From: Flaviramulus multivorans
GTDB taxonomy: Bacteria > Bacteroidota > Bacteroidia > Flavobacteriales > Flavobacteriaceae
Assembly: GCF_021728415.1 (NCBI RefSeq)
Contig: NZ_JAKKDV010000001.1
Coordinates: forward strand, 725,977 to 789,976
DNA length: 64,000 bases
Direction: 5' to 3'
The translations under genes and the position numbers were made by a program. How positions within the stretch are numbered: the first letter of the stretch is position 1; each line of letters opens with the position of its first letter. This document shows positions 10,236 through 50,941 of the stretch, one piece after another. The notes beneath the pieces were generated by a model. The model worked only from the letters and a program-made list of their open reading frames with translations. It did not search any database and was not told the DNA's origin.

Positions 10236-11768
10236 CTAAAATTTAATAGCAAATCCGGTATAAACACCTATAAAAAATGGTGTAAAATTACCTGATGTAT
10301 TTTTAAATGTGTTAATTTGATATTTAAACATAGGCTCTAAATTCAAGTCTATTTTTTTAGAAACCTGATAGTTAAAACCTAAACCAAAATTAGCACTATA
10401 ACTTACTTTGTTAATATTATTAGCCTCACCTAAAAAAGTTCTATTTCCATTTTCTGCCTCAGAATATATTTCATTATCATTTAAAAAGAATGAACTAAAC
10501 CCACCAATAACATTTACGCCTAATTTTTTATCAGAAAGTGTGTATTGAATTTCTAAAGGAATTTCTATATAGCCTAATGCCTGATTTAGAGAGGTGTTAG
10601 TAGTAGCAAAATCTTCAGGGATAGTATTGTTATTTAAACTTTCGGCGCTTATCACTGAAACAGCATCACTAGAACTATTATTACCAGTTGAATTAACATT
10701 TTGCAATGCACCACTACTAGAATTTAAGCCTGCAGATTGAAAAATAATAACATCATTAGTATTGTAACCTAAATTAACTTTATTAATACCTGAACGCACG
10801 CTTAATTTATTGTTTATAGCATAACTTGCAGATATACCATAACTCATGTTTACTTCACCGCTTTTGGCATTTTTATTAAACTGCGGATCAATGGAGGACC
10901 CTTCACCAAGCGAATTAAAATAAACAGGCGCAGCATTTGGGGCAATACTCCACCTGTTTTGTTTTAGTTCCTCTTCTTCACTAAGATCTTTGTTTTTATC
11001 TAAAGCCTCTTCAATGGAAAGGGCATTTTTTTCAGTTTCATTTTCAGTTGCACTTTCAGACTGTTCGTCTTTGTTTTGGGCAATATTATTACTGTTATCT
11101 GAAAGTTTATTTAAAAGTTCACGAGCCTTTTCTTTATCAATTAAAGATTCATTACTTGTATTATTTTCGTCATTTGAAGATGTAACAAGCGCATTGCCCT
11201 TTTCTTCCTTTTCTGAAAGGTCTGCTATAGCATTATTACTAGCGGGATTCACCAGTTTGTTTTTTATGTTATCTTTTGAAACATTATTAACACTATTATT
11301 ACTTTTTCTTGTTGATTTAGAAGATTCAACTATCGAAGACTCGTTTATTGAATTTAACTTATTTTGAGATTTTTCAAGAGACGTTTTTTCATTGGAAGTA
11401 TTTAAACCTTCTTTTGATTCTTCATTATCAATAACAGCGGTTTTAATGTCAGTAGTATTATCTGAATTTTTTAAAGAGGAATTAGTTTCCTCGTTTAATT
11501 GCTCTAAAGAGGCATCGTTATCAGTTTCCACCACTTGATTTGTTGGTGTTTTGCTATTGTCATTAAAAAATGTGTAACCAACAGTAAAAAGCAAAAGCAA
11601 TAAGGCTGCTACACCGGCATATCGCCACCAAATAGGAATTACACGACGTTTCTTCTTTTTCTCGTTAAGAGATGCTTCAATGTTTTTCCAAACAGCATCA
11701 CTAGGAGTCGCTTCAAAGTCTTTAAAACCCTCTTGAAAAAGTCTGTCTATATGTTTTTTTTCACTCAT
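10236..11768 (-). CDS. Anti-sigma factor fused to an outer-membrane beta-barrel
   Basis: A 510-residue protein with an unusual layout. Residues 1-46 are cytoplasmic-like and basic at the end (KKKKRR), containing the anti-sigma-like stretch FEATPSDAVWKNIEASL. One membrane helix follows at about 49-68. Residues 70-270 are a 200-residue low-complexity linker of S, N, E, K and D. Residues about 271-510 look like an eight-stranded outer-membrane barrel of the PorT/OmpW class, ending in the aromatic terminus GVYTGFAIKF expected for BAM substrates. The start overlaps the stop of the ECF sigma gene by one base, so it is very probably its regulator. If both ends fold as they appear, the chain spans both membranes. 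The barrel and anti-sigma roles are inferred. Confidence 0.78.
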   Translation of the reverse strand: MSEKKHIDRLFQEGFKDFEATPSDAVWKNIEASLNEKKKKRRVIPIWWRYAGVAALLLLLFTVGYTFFNDNSKTPTNQVVETDNDASLEQLNEETNSSLKNSDNTTDIKTAVIDNEESKEGLNTSNEKTSLEKSQNKLNSINESSIVESSKSTRKSNNSVNNVSKDNIKNKLVNPASNNAIADLSEKEEKGNALVTSSNDENNTSNESLIDKEKARELLNKLSDNSNNIAQNKDEQSESATENETEKNALSIEEALDKNKDLSEEEELKQNRWSIAPNAAPVYFNSLGEGSSIDPQFNKNAKSGEVNMSYGISASYAINNKLSVRSGINKVNLGYNTNDVIIFQSAGLNSSSGALQNVNSTGNNSSSDAVSVISAESLNNNTIPEDFATTNTSLNQALGYIEIPLEIQYTLSDKKLGVNVIGGFSSFFLNDNEIYSEAENGNRTFLGEANNINKVSYSANFGLGFNYQVSKKIDLNLEPMFKYQINTFKNTSGNFTPFFIGVYTGFAIKF

Positions 11769-12319
11769 TATTGCGATTGTGAATGTTGTTTTGTTTTGTA
11801 ATGCTCAATCGTTTGCTTCAAAATTTGTCTTGCTCGTGCTAAATTAGATTTTGATGTTCCTATATTAATATCAAGCATACTTGCTATGTCTTTATGCGAA
11901 TAACCATCCAATACATAAAGGTTAAAAACCAAGCGGTATCTGTCCGGTAATTCTTGAATGATTTGTAATAGATAATCGATTGAAAGAGAATCTTCATCAA
12001 CTTCTAATTCAACATCTTCAATAGTATTTTCATTAATTATATCAAAAACCTTTTCTTTTCGGTATCGTTGTAACGCAGTGTTTACCGTAATGCGTTTTAA
12101 CCAACCTTCAAAAGAGCCTTTGCCTTTATACTGTTCAATTTTTTTAAAAACTGTAATAAAAGTGTCTTGCAGATTATCTTCAGCTTCTGCATAATTGCGT
12201 GAATACTTTAAGCAAACTGCGAATAATTTGCTCGAAAAGAGTTTATATAATTCGCTTTGTGCTTTAGTATCATCTTTTTTACAATTTTCTATGAGTTGAT
12301 CTAAACTCAAATTAAACAT
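11768..12319 (-). CDS. ECF-type RNA polymerase sigma factor
   Basis: A 183-residue group 4 sigma factor. Region 2 is clear at about residues 24-95 (YAEAEDNLQDTFITVFKKI, then GSFEGWLKRITVNTALQRYR), and region 4 at about 120-172 (LPDRYRLVFNLYVLDGYSHK then DIASMLDINIGTSKSNLARA), with a short acidic spacer between. It would direct polymerase to a dedicated promoter set. The upstream lipoprotein gene is 21 bases away and the downstream anti-sigma/barrel gene overlaps by one base, so the three form an operon. A candidate self-recognised promoter lies ahead of the operon at 12817-12790. Confidence 0.95.
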   Translation of the reverse strand: MFNLSLDQLIENCKKDDTKAQSELYKLFSSKLFAVCLKYSRNYAEAEDNLQDTFITVFKKIEQYKGKGSFEGWLKRITVNTALQRYRKEKVFDIINENTIEDVELEVDEDSLSIDYLLQIIQELPDRYRLVFNLYVLDGYSHKDIASMLDINIGTSKSNLARARQILKQTIEHYKTKQHSQSQ

Positions 12320-12340: not shown

Positions 12341-12751
12341 TTAGTCTATTACTGGTACTTCAATAATTAAATATATTGGCTCGCCTTGAGAATCTTCTCC
12401 TTGCCAAAACTTAAAAATATAAGAACCATTGCTAGTAACTATAAAGTTAAACGTTGCTTCTACCAATTCATTTTCTAGTGTGCTGCAACTGTTATCTTCA
12501 AAAACATAAGTAATTGGAGCCACAGTACGTTCATTATTTTCTTTTAAATAATAAAACTCTTTAAAACTGTGGCAAGTTGAAGGCTTAAAATACGAAACAG
12601 TAATTGGATATGTTTCTCCTAATTGAAACTCACTAGGAATATCTACGCTCTCAACAGGCAAAATTTCAAAACTATAACTTACAGTATCATCATTAAGGCT
12701 ACACGAAACAAATAATACTAAAGTTAAACTCAGGGCAAGTAACTTTTTCAT
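12341..12751 (-). CDS. Predicted lipoprotein at the head of the ECF operon
   Basis: A 136-residue protein with a clear lipoprotein signal (KKLLALSLTLVLFVSC, acylated Cys17). The rest looks beta-rich and Ig-like, with three cysteines (near 77, 109 and further) that could form a disulfide in the periplasm. I do not recognise a named family. It is the first gene behind the candidate ECF promoter, and the sigma and anti-sigma genes follow, so it may be an envelope sensor, a client or a target of the response. Its own function cannot be stated. Confidence 0.8.
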   Translation of the reverse strand: MKKLLALSLTLVLFVSCSLNDDTVSYSFEILPVESVDIPSEFQLGETYPITVSYFKPSTCHSFKEFYYLKENNERTVAPITYVFEDNSCSTLENELVEATFNFIVTSNGSYIFKFWQGEDSQGEPIYLIIEVPVID

Positions 12752-12789: not shown

Positions 12790-12817
12790 TAGATGCTTAG
12801 ATAATAAAAAGGTTGCG
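12790..12817 (-). promoter_or_regulatory. Candidate ECF promoter of the lipoprotein-sigma-anti-sigma operon
   Basis: On the minus strand CGCAACC (12817-12811), 14 bases, then GCATCTA (12796-12790). The AAC-containing upstream box and short downstream box resemble an ECF -35/-10 pair. The same two boxes at the same distance recur at 13924-13951 and 50914-50941. The start of transcription would be near 12783, giving a leader of about 32 bases. Autoregulation by the operon's own sigma factor is inferred. Confidence 0.72.
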
Positions 12818-12855: not shown

Positions 12856-13857
12856 TTATTTTTCTGAGACTATTTTTCTAACCTTGGCTTCAAGTTCATC
12901 CATCAGTTCTGGGTTATCCTTTATCAATGCTTTAACAGCATCTCTTCCTTGTCCAAGCTTAGTTTCGTCATAGCTAAACCACGAGCCACTTTTCTTAACA
13001 ATTTCGTGTTCAACAGCCAAATCTAATATTTCACCTACTTTGCTAACACCTTCGCCATACATAATATCGAATTCTGCCATTTTAAAAGGTGGTGCTACTT
13101 TATTTTTAACAACTTTTACGCGTGTTTTATTACCAGTTACATTACCATCCGTCTCTTTTATTTGGGTAGAACGACGAATGTCTAGCCTAACAGACGCGTA
13201 GAATTTTAAAGCATTTCCACCTGTTGTAGTTTCTGGGTTACCAAACATAACACCAATTTTTTCGCGCAATTGGTTAATAAATATAACAGTACAGTTGGTT
13301 TTGCTAATTGATGCAGTTAGTTTTCTTAAGGCCTGAGACATTAATCTTGCATGCAAGCCCATTTTAGAATCGCCCATTTCGCCTTCAATTTCACTTTTCG
13401 GAGTCAATGCAGCAACGGAGTCTATCACTACAATATCAATGGCGCCAGAGCGAATTAAATTATCAGCTATTTCTAAAGCCTGCTCTCCATTATCTGGTTG
13501 AGAAATTATTAAGTTATCAATATCTACACCTAATTTTTCAGCATAAAACCTGTCAAAAGCATGTTCAGCATCAATAAATGCTGCAATACCACCTGCTTTT
13601 TGCGCTTCAGCAATAGCGTGTAAAGTTAATGTTGTTTTTCCTGAAGATTCCGGACCATAAATTTCTATAACACGTCCACGAGGATATCCGCCAACGCCTA
13701 ATGCAATATCTAAACCTAAAGAACCAGAAGGAATAGCATCAACATCTACAATAGCAGAGTCGCTCATTTTCATTACGGTTCCTTTTCCGTAGGCTTTATC
13801 AAGTTTGTCTAGTGTAAGTTTTAGTGCTTTTAATTTCGCTTCTTTTTCGCTGCTCAT
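12856..13857 (-). CDS. recA: Recombinase RecA
   Basis: ATP-dependent strand-exchange protein and SOS co-protease. The 333 residues align along the whole family: Walker [10 protein letters not shown] at 68-76, the [25 protein letters not shown] Walker B/L1 region (broken here into its known parts IDSVAAL and GEMGD), the L2 segment with [17 protein letters not shown], and a short acidic C-terminus. It begins [15 protein letters not shown] as expected in flavobacteria. It has its own terminator and stands between the ECF operon and a divergent intergenic region that holds the candidate small RNA. No LexA-type operator was recognised. Confidence 0.98.
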
Positions 13858-13923: not shown

Positions 13924-13951
13924 CGCAACCTTTTTCAACATTCTGCATCTA
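13924..13951 (+). promoter_or_regulatory. Candidate ECF promoter of a small RNA
   Basis: CGCAACC at 13924-13930 and GCATCTA at 13945-13951, spaced by 14 bases, identical in both boxes to the site ahead of the ECF operon. Transcription would start near 13957. There is no gene for nearly 200 bases downstream, but a terminator lies at 14029-14063. Confidence 0.68.
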
Positions 13952-13956
13952 CTATA

Positions 13957-14063
13957 AAAGATGGAAAAATTTTGCTATGAGATTTATCCAAAAACGGTTT
14001 GAATTTTAGACTAACTCGAACTTTACTAAAAGCACTTTAAGGTTATTAAAGTGCTTTTTTTAT
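13957..14063 (+). ncRNA. Candidate ECF-dependent small RNA of about 105 nt
   Basis: The unit begins at the predicted start of the ECF-like promoter and ends in a perfect 12-base stem with a T-tract. It carries no substantial ORF; the only one is a 13-codon frame from 13961 to 14002 that opens three or four bases after the expected start and could be a leaderless micro-ORF or chance. The next gene, trhO, has its own housekeeping promoter starting at 14072, beyond the terminator, so read-through is not needed to express it. By analogy with sigma-E-dependent RNAs of enterobacteria it might repress envelope-protein mRNAs. That role is inference. Confidence 0.55.
14029..14063 (+). terminator. Intrinsic terminator of the candidate small RNA
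   Basis: Perfect 12-base stem AAAGCACTTTAA (14029-14040) with TTAAAGTGCTTT (14046-14057), five-base loop, then a T-rich tail. No annotated gene upstream on this strand needs it, which is the main sign of an independent short transcript. Confidence 0.88.
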
Positions 14064-14071
14064 GCTTTACA

Positions 14072-14101
14072 TTGTGACATTCCCTTAAAATTGTACTTTT
14101 G
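14072..14101 (+). promoter_or_regulatory. Housekeeping promoter of trhO
   Basis: TTG at 14072-14074 and TACTTTTG at 14094-14101 with a 19-base spacer match the Bacteroidota -33/-7 consensus. The leader to the ATG at 14142 is about 36 bases. Confidence 0.75.
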
Positions 14102-14141
14102 CACTTTAAAATATTTCTTTAACCTTATAAATTAGTATAGC

Positions 14142-15215
14142 ATGCAACTGTACAATAAACTAAGCGCAAAAGAAAGAGCAGAATTAATCGATAAGGCAGG
14201 GAAAAATCGATTAACACTTTCTTTTTATAAGTATGCCAAAATAGGCAATCCACAAATTTTTAGAGATCATTTATTTGTTACTTGGGATGCACTTGATGTT
14301 CTGGGCAGAATTTATGTAGCACACGAAGGTATTAATGGGCAGCTTTCGCTTCCAGCAGATCGTTTTAAAGAATTTAAAAAGCACTTAGATTCTATTGTTT
14401 TTTTAAAGGGAATACGACTTAATATTGCTAGAGAGCAAGACAATAAATCCTTTTTAAAACTAAAAATTAAAGTTCGAAACAAAATTGTTGCCGATGGCTT
14501 AAACGATGATACTTTTGATGTAACTAACAAAGGAATTCATGTTGATGCTAAAAAATTTAATGAGCTTATTGAAGATGAAAAAACAGTGCTGGTTGATATG
14601 CGTAATCATTATGAAAGCGAAATAGGGCATTTTAAAAATGCTGTTACGCCTGATGTTGATACATTTAGAGAATCTCTCGATATTATTGAAGAAGATTTAA
14701 AAGACCATAAGGAAGATAAAAATTTGGTGATGTATTGTACTGGCGGTATACGTTGTGAAAAAGCTAGCGCATACTTTAAGCATAAAGGATTTAAAAATGT
14801 GTATCAATTAGAAGGTGGAATTATTGAATATGCAAGACAAGTCAATGAAAAAAAACTAGATAATAAGTTTTTAGGGCAGAACTTCGTGTTTGACGATAGA
14901 AGAGCAGAACGCATTTCCGAGGATGTGATTGCTTATTGCCACCAATGCGGAAAACCTTTTGATGTACACACTAACTGTGCTAACGAAGCATGTCATTTGT
15001 TATTTATTCAATGTGATGAATGTAAGGAAGAAATGAATAATTGCTGTTCTACAACTTGCAAAGAGATTCATGCGTTACCATACGAAGAGCAAAAAGCCTT
15101 ACGCAAAGGGCAAGGAAATAGTAACGATATCTTCAAAAAAGGGCGCGCAGACCATCTTCCTTATAAAAAAGATTTGAGAAATATTTTTGATGTTTTAAAG
15201 AATAAGCAATTATAG
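14142..15215 (+). CDS. trhO: tRNA uridine-34 hydroxylase, rhodanese family
   Basis: Oxygen-dependent enzyme that makes 5-hydroxyuridine at the wobble position of certain tRNAs. The 357 residues show an N-terminal ferredoxin-like part (about 10-115), a rhodanese domain with the active-site loop YCTGGIRCEKAS near 197-208, and a C-terminal cysteine-rich stretch (CHQCGKPFDVHTNCANEACH, then CDECKEEMNNCCSTTC) that probably binds zinc. This order is that of YceA/TrhO proteins. The gene follows its own promoter and stands alone, 119 bases ahead of the ricT-like gene. Confidence 0.9.
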   Translation: MQLYNKLSAKERAELIDKAGKNRLTLSFYKYAKIGNPQIFRDHLFVTWDALDVLGRIYVAHEGINGQLSLPADRFKEFKKHLDSIVFLKGIRLNIAREQDNKSFLKLKIKVRNKIVADGLNDDTFDVTNKGIHVDAKKFNELIEDEKTVLVDMRNHYESEIGHFKNAVTPDVDTFRESLDIIEEDLKDHKEDKNLVMYCTGGIRCEKASAYFKHKGFKNVYQLEGGIIEYARQVNEKKLDNKFLGQNFVFDDRRAERISEDVIAYCHQCGKPFDVHTNCANEACHLLFIQCDECKEEMNNCCSTTCKEIHALPYEEQKALRKGQGNSNDIFKKGRADHLPYKKDLRNIFDVLKNKQL

Positions 15216-50913: not shown

Positions 50914-50941
50914 TAGATGCAAAATATTGAAATAGGTTGCG
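50914..50941 (-). promoter_or_regulatory. Candidate ECF promoter of the lipoprotein gene
   Basis: Minus strand CGCAACC (50941-50935), 14 bases, GCATCTA (50920-50914). The expected start near 50907 leaves a leader of only about seven bases. Confidence 0.7.

Follow-up and report, generated by a model that had tools for sequence, protein, structure and literature searches.

The short intergenic region between the divergent genes recA and trhO raises the question of whether it holds a gene of its own and, if so, what the RNA made from it would do. The region lies in the 64,000-nucleotide stretch of Flaviramulus multivorans DNA analysed here, referred to as the window, and an earlier note on it had proposed a small RNA dependent on an ECF sigma factor, on the model of MicA and RybB, the sigma-E-dependent small RNAs of enterobacteria. 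To our knowledge, post-transcriptional control has been little studied in Flavobacteriaceae, and many members of the phylum appear to be without Hfq. The reading to which we give roughly even chances is that the unit is an ECF-driven decoy (sponge) for a second conserved small RNA, called S below, and that it has a dual function in those relatives in which it also encodes a peptide.

The unit, from promoter to terminator, occupies positions 13924-14061 of the plus strand. Its divergent upstream neighbour (12856-13857, minus strand), which we take from its sequence to be recA, is found in synteny in the family loci, and its downstream neighbour is trhO, a UPF0176/rhodanese gene (14142-15215, plus strand). 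The promoter-like pair that had been noticed upstream of the unit can be read directly as a promoter of ECF type, with CGCAACC at 13924-13930 and ATCTA at 13947-13951 (13924-13951 in all, plus strand) separated by a spacer of 16 nt. From this promoter and the terminator, a transcript of about 105 nt is predicted (13957-14061, plus strand), and direct reading bears out that no substantial ORF lies between the two. The intrinsic terminator, recovered by a terminator scan, spans 14028-14061 on the plus strand, with arms at 14028-14040 and 14046-14058, a loop of 5 and a T-run to 14061; it is perfect, as had been stated, with a stem of 13 rather than 12 base pairs. In the 3-kb region scanned, there are five terminator-like sites, including that of the unit, against 1.6 in shuffled sequences. 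The 105-nt RNA folds better than each of 200 shuffled versions (z -3.9), an effect due largely to the terminator. No Rfam family scored above its gathering threshold in the window region, even at permissive thresholds, or in seven of the loci searched at the gathering threshold.

About 1.1 kb from the unit lies an operon on the minus strand whose first gene (12341-12751) encodes a lipoprotein, recognised by eye from a signal peptide with FVSC and without a match in a Pfam search. It is followed by the gene of an ECF sigma factor (11768-12319; Pfam Sigma70_r2/r4_2 and TIGR02937) and by that of a candidate anti-sigma factor (10236-11768), so called from its position 3' of the ECF gene; the latter has no Pfam match, and its NCBIfam antisigma match (E 0.024) falls below the cut-off. 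The operon is preceded by an ECF-type promoter with the same motif as that of the RNA unit (12790-12816, minus strand). In the whole genome, GCAACC-N14-17-RTCTA has 17 matches and the reversed control 10, which makes for only mild enrichment of the bare pattern. Ten of the 17 contexts were examined, and seven of them share an extended form, ACGCAACC in six and GCGCAACC at the ECF operon; these seven are the RNA unit, four lipoprotein genes (that of the window's ECF operon included), a gene for an outer-membrane-type protein and a 28-codon membrane-type frame. No such gene start accompanies the other three, which lie within coding sequence or next to it, and CGCAACC also occurs in two of the seven matches outside the examined ten. 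Because the promoter is common to the ECF operon and to envelope genes, the RNA unit probably belongs, on this indirect ground, to the regulon of the neighbouring ECF sigma factor. A second promoter of the same kind is present in the window at 50914-50940 on the minus strand, where it precedes a lipoprotein-like frame of 126 aa.

Of 395 family genomes, 354 have a TrhO match. The 130 loci examined upstream of trhO belong to the best of the matches listed, a sample weighted towards proteins resembling the window's TrhO. In 120 of them, recA is the immediate, divergent neighbour of trhO; among the 100 long loci, 88 have an ECF homologue within reach. The ECF-type promoter of the unit is kept in 109 of the 120 recA-adjacent loci, and a terminator precedes trhO in 96 of those 109 (1.7 expected after shuffling), counts that are not independent, given the relatedness of the loci and their selection for a similar TrhO. 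Moreover, trhO has a separate promoter of its own 3' of the terminator, as had been claimed, and it can be read directly as a sigma-A-type promoter at 14072-14101 of the plus strand, with TTG at 14072-14074, N19 and TACTTTTG at 14094-14101. The Bacteroidetes sigma-A consensus is given as TAnnTTTG in PMC9723704, and a box of this form is located at most 110 nt from trhO in 119 of the 120 family loci, with 11.4 expected from mononucleotide shuffling. An independent, terminated RNA unit of ECF type is well supported by these comparisons, and the concern that homologous intergenic regions might be without both promoter and terminator is not borne out by them.

Within the unit, the most strongly conserved part is a 5' segment, E1 (GGGAAAA..TTGCTATGAAA, 13960-13983, plus strand), which is defined by alignment, complementarity and fold. 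A strict E1 pattern is present in 87 of the 109 promoter-bearing loci and absent from 22, namely 10 class A loci and 12 others including the window, some of them narrow misses; the window carries a GAGA variant that the pattern does not take in, and its copy (L077) was put in class B by hand for the tree analysis. Three layouts can be distinguished. In class A (40 loci, 30 with strict E1), a frame of 30 aa lies mostly 3' of E1, its stop codon opens a hairpin, and the terminator follows. Class B (49 loci and the window) consists of E1 and the terminator, with a second segment, E2, placed between them in many loci, about 30 nt after E1, while in class C (8 loci by the strict pattern) E1 comes late in the RNA. 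In seven class C loci, some found with a looser pattern, E2 precedes E1 (L146, L171, L177, L186, L193, L198 and L205). This swap of the E2/E1 order belongs to one lineage, and E1 there is in or near the loop of a 3' hairpin, as judged by eye from single-sequence folds.

Covariation across the family's recA-trhO intergenic regions, suggested in the earlier note as a check, is seen in the terminator: RNAalifold finds compensatory change in 8 of its 11 predicted pairs in alignment A2, which comprises 28 class B loci passing a terminator-requiring filter and the window. Of 10 class C candidates, 8 make up a further alignment, A3. Two more stem-loops on the plus strand are predicted from single-sequence folds, which differ among loci: stem-loop 1 (13962-13990) contains E1, and stem-loop 2 (13996-14022) has on its 3' side E2 (GACTAACTCGAAC, 14009-14021), which is conserved in A2. 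Stem-loop 2 is absent from the RNAalifold prediction on A2, and on class B the terminator alone is recovered. In the window, the start triplet of a 10-codon frame, MRFIQKRFEF (13977-14009, plus strand), lies inside E1, and this frame is judged to be non-functional here. Nor is conservation limited to a short frame, as might have been feared, given that frames from the ATG position of E1 vary from 2 to 44 codons in the 49 class B loci. At this position, ATG is found in 70 of the 87 strict E1 copies and GTG in 8; 9 have neither, namely three with TATAA, five with TATCA and L197, which is probably a chance match. Because eight copies are without a start codon and eight have GTG, E1 is not simply a start site, and these comparisons show conservation at the level of the RNA.

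A scan of named genomes for promoter plus E1 returned at least 119 stretches, from genera of Flavobacteriaceae and some unclassified Bacteroidota assemblies. Among the 81 matches listed, in 80 loci, 74 are at recA and/or trhO, and the other seven are ECF-type promoters of lipoprotein-like genes (by eye) whose start region is TTGCTATGA. TTGCTATGAAA is a real start region of ECF-driven lipoproteins in 7 of the 81 matches listed, and also at L037 in the window's own genome, so that an origin in a shared start context is possible.

The partner proposed for E1 came from its core. TTGCTATGARA has 7 sites in the window's own genome, against 12 for the reversed control, and one of them, near dnaJ, resembles class A E1 over more than 20 bases. 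Of 395 family genomes, 348 contain the 16-mer TGCTATGAARAAGAAA and 6 its reversed control; some of the matches may be decoy loci rather than S, 30 places having been read. In all 31 loci, these 30 and that of the own genome, the matching site is near dnaJ and an ABC ATP-binding gene, and on the opposite strand the same compact layout is found: a TATATTTG/TATCTTTG box, a hairpin, a linker and a terminator hairpin. The linker TTTTCTTTTTCATAGCAA is invariant, and the terminator hairpin is followed by TTTTGTTTTT or close variants. The own copy of this RNA gene, S, is at G000:C10:81802-81900 (L332 1456-1554) on the minus strand; its RNA would be about 85-90 nt long, and its fold has a z of -8.6. 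Compensatory change is seen in 10 of 24 predicted pairs of S, whose alignments A4 and A5 hold 28 and 25 of the 31 loci with near-duplicates left out. Searched under stricter filters against 196 genomes of the order, a covariance model of S gave matches in 22, every one of them from the same family; in the large genus g129, just 4 of the 22 genomes listed had a match. As many as seven copies are present in G290 and eight in G396. In Rfam, nothing scored above a gathering threshold against the S locus L332 at permissive thresholds.

The complement of the S linker and first terminator bases is GGGAAAAAAATTGCTATGAAAAAG, and E1 of class B is GGGAAAAWTTTTGCTATGAAA. Among the roughly 128,000 positions of the window, E1 is the second best for the complement of the S linker. 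Across the family, the intergenic region on the trhO strand holds the best S-complement match in 91 of 120 loci, as compared with a mean of 13.5 and a maximum of 74 for 150 shuffled motifs (a maximum that possibly comes from a shuffle keeping the core), 13 for the reversed motif and 1 for the sense of S. Likewise, 78 of 109 RNAs reach an S-complement score of at least 15, while the shuffles have a mean of 1.2 and a maximum of 41. Complementarity to the presumed pairing region of S is thus conserved, as would be expected of a sponge or decoy, with duplex energies that are weak: for 17 same-genome pairs against shuffled decoys, z ranges from +1.1 to -3.8, and in G228, G160 and G246 the predicted duplex lies outside E1. 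Duplex energy was accordingly set aside as proof of E1:S pairing, being too noisy. In the five class B loci with TATCA, the mismatch to S falls within the seed. In G189, whose locus L200 has lost E1, the best S match has an E of 0.05, compared with 1e-10 to 1e-14 in seven strong matches, a single case. Some genomes with the S 16-mer have no unit at the recA-trhO locus, for example those to which L106, L140, L149 and L159 belong.

As the most conserved part of the unit is antisense to another conserved small RNA, the finding points to a decoy, which we regard as the most economical reading. The ECF sigma factor encoded nearby would drive a short RNA from the unit, and the 5' stem-loop of this RNA would present E1 for pairing with the unpaired linker of S. 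S itself would be driven by sigma-A downstream of dnaJ and would consist of a 5' hairpin, AAUUUUUCUUUUUCAUAGCAAUUUUUUU and a terminator hairpin. Under an active envelope-stress sigma factor, the RNA of the unit would titrate S and alter the expression of S-controlled genes, and a peptide of 30 residues would be encoded on this transcript in about one in three of the relatives examined. Since the S linker (CUUUUUCAUAGCAA) is antisense to starts of UUGCUAUGAAAAAG form, S may repress some exported MKK-type proteins. The start regions of lipoproteins are not supported as general S targets, scoring no better than those of recA: the median S-complement scores are 10 for ECF-lipoprotein starts (n=82), 11 for recA (n=118) and 6 for trhO (n=120), and a few ECF-lipoprotein start regions, at L125, L130 and L133, pair well with S.

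Among known systems, RbsZ is a sponge of RybB in Escherichia coli, and the unit resembles it in carrying a stretch whose sequence complements another small RNA's pairing region; it differs in that it is a stand-alone gene of ECF type, that its presumed partner is S, and that sponging is here a prediction from sequence. The unit goes beyond a generic small RNA candidate in that E1 is antisense to the single-stranded linker of S. If the pairing is real, an ECF envelope response would be tied to a widespread antisense RNA by way of a decoy, and the two conserved RNA genes able to pair, together with the small peptide, are all testable in cultivable species. A wider proposal, that of a family-wide two-RNA envelope circuit in which S is antisense to MKK-type starts, an ECF decoy counters it, a micropeptide varies with lineage and motifs were swapped in one lineage, is held tentatively, and we would put it at less than even chances.

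The main rival starts from the peptide. In 40 of the 120 loci, the class A ones, the unit also encodes a 30-aa peptide ending in CKADGG, with a consensus close to MKFFKKTIxNxALGVSVxVxxNSNCKADGG, and it has been considered that the unit is in fact the S-regulated mRNA of this ECF-induced peptide, or a relic of it, E1 being the regulatory site at which S represses that mRNA and the window copy having lost the frame. The peptide evolves under purifying selection, with an omega-like ratio of 0.35 overall and 0.08 over residues 22-30 in 33 frames, only frames of exactly 30 aa having been taken; judged by this estimate, it is real and under selection. Of 395 genomes, 88 have the peptide at E<=0.01, and 64 of those at E<=1e-8. 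In the class A loci L117, L134, L145 and L183, moreover, E1 is the peptide's own start region, as the mRNA reading would have it. In the other class A loci listed, however, the peptide's ATG follows E1 at a distance of about 15 to 200 bases, and class C as well as about 50 class B loci keep E1, promoter and terminator without a peptide. On a RecA tree that is weakly resolved, with stars on 9 of its 113 inner branches, the peptide is gained or lost 18 times, at least four of these changes being forced by starred branches, and E1 and the promoter mostly stay while the peptide comes and goes. In the window's genome, the peptide was found neither in a search at E<=10, run without a positive control, nor in the 395-genome search. 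Taken together, we consider it unlikely that the unit is primarily the mRNA of the peptide.

For the decoy reading, class A would recall SgrS/SgrT, a dual-function RNA, in that a regulatory segment and a selected small ORF are on one RNA; the class A peptide differs in being lineage-variable, absent from the window's genome and without a match in NCBIfam (two members) or in the PDB (a six-member profile). Its end is N(S/G)(N/S)CK(A/T)DGG in L010 (1285-1377) and the 40 class A loci, and its stop codon opens the hairpin, for example TAACTCGT..ACGAGTTAGTC. One might guess at a lipopeptide or a RiPP-like product.

The conventional alternative, which is the one drawn in the earlier note, is a trans-acting ECF-dependent small RNA of the RybB/MicA kind, with E1 or E2 as the seed against envelope mRNAs. 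The ECF promoter, the terminator and the conserved segments are what such an RNA would have, and the unit is like MicA and RybB in being a short terminated RNA with an ECF-type promoter directly upstream. In five of the seven E2-first class C loci, furthermore, E2 is 7-9 bases 3' of the promoter and would form the RNA 5' end. Against this, it is with S that the strongest conserved complementarity was found, and unlike MicA and RybB the unit has no Rfam match above threshold, carries a conserved segment antisense to S and encodes a peptide in many relatives. The part of the original proposal that stands by comparison is therefore an independent, terminated unit of ECF type, whereas a repressor of outer-membrane-protein mRNAs analogous to RybB or MicA is not favoured, and its being so is improbable in our estimation. 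A second partner, for E2, was also sought and rejected: 72 of 199 family genomes contain the E2-like ACTAACTCRAACT, with up to 8 copies (G198), and the 30 places read have no common partner locus, several of them lying 3' of hairpins.

Flavobacterial small RNAs offer a further comparison. In PMC9723704, the ECF-type promoter class SM6 of F. psychrophilum covers the trhO homologue, an ECF/anti-sigma pair and the small RNA Rfp11. The unit is like the Rfp RNAs (Rfp11, Rfp18) in being flavobacterial, and like Rfp11 in that the latter is listed under the ECF-type SM6 motif; Rfp11 (182564) is located away from the trhO promoter (49622) in F. psychrophilum, as compared by position and description (PMC9723704). 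The main text of PMC9723704 has no mention of recA, and in the open-licence literature on flavobacterial and Bacteroidetes small RNAs, ECF sigma factors and sponges no description of the unit or of S was found.

That the unit is instead a cis leader or attenuator of trhO, with ECF transcription passing the terminator under some conditions, would accord with the shared strand and synteny and with the SM6 entry for a YceA rhodanese gene of F. psychrophilum (PMC9723704), but the conserved terminator and the nearly universal sigma-A box at trhO argue against it and make it very unlikely. The start region of trhO (window 14130-14144, AGTATAGCATG) is strongly conserved in the loci read, and this conservation holds in several loci where the RNA unit is absent. 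A complementarity of 7 bp between E1 and this start region was spotted after the fact.
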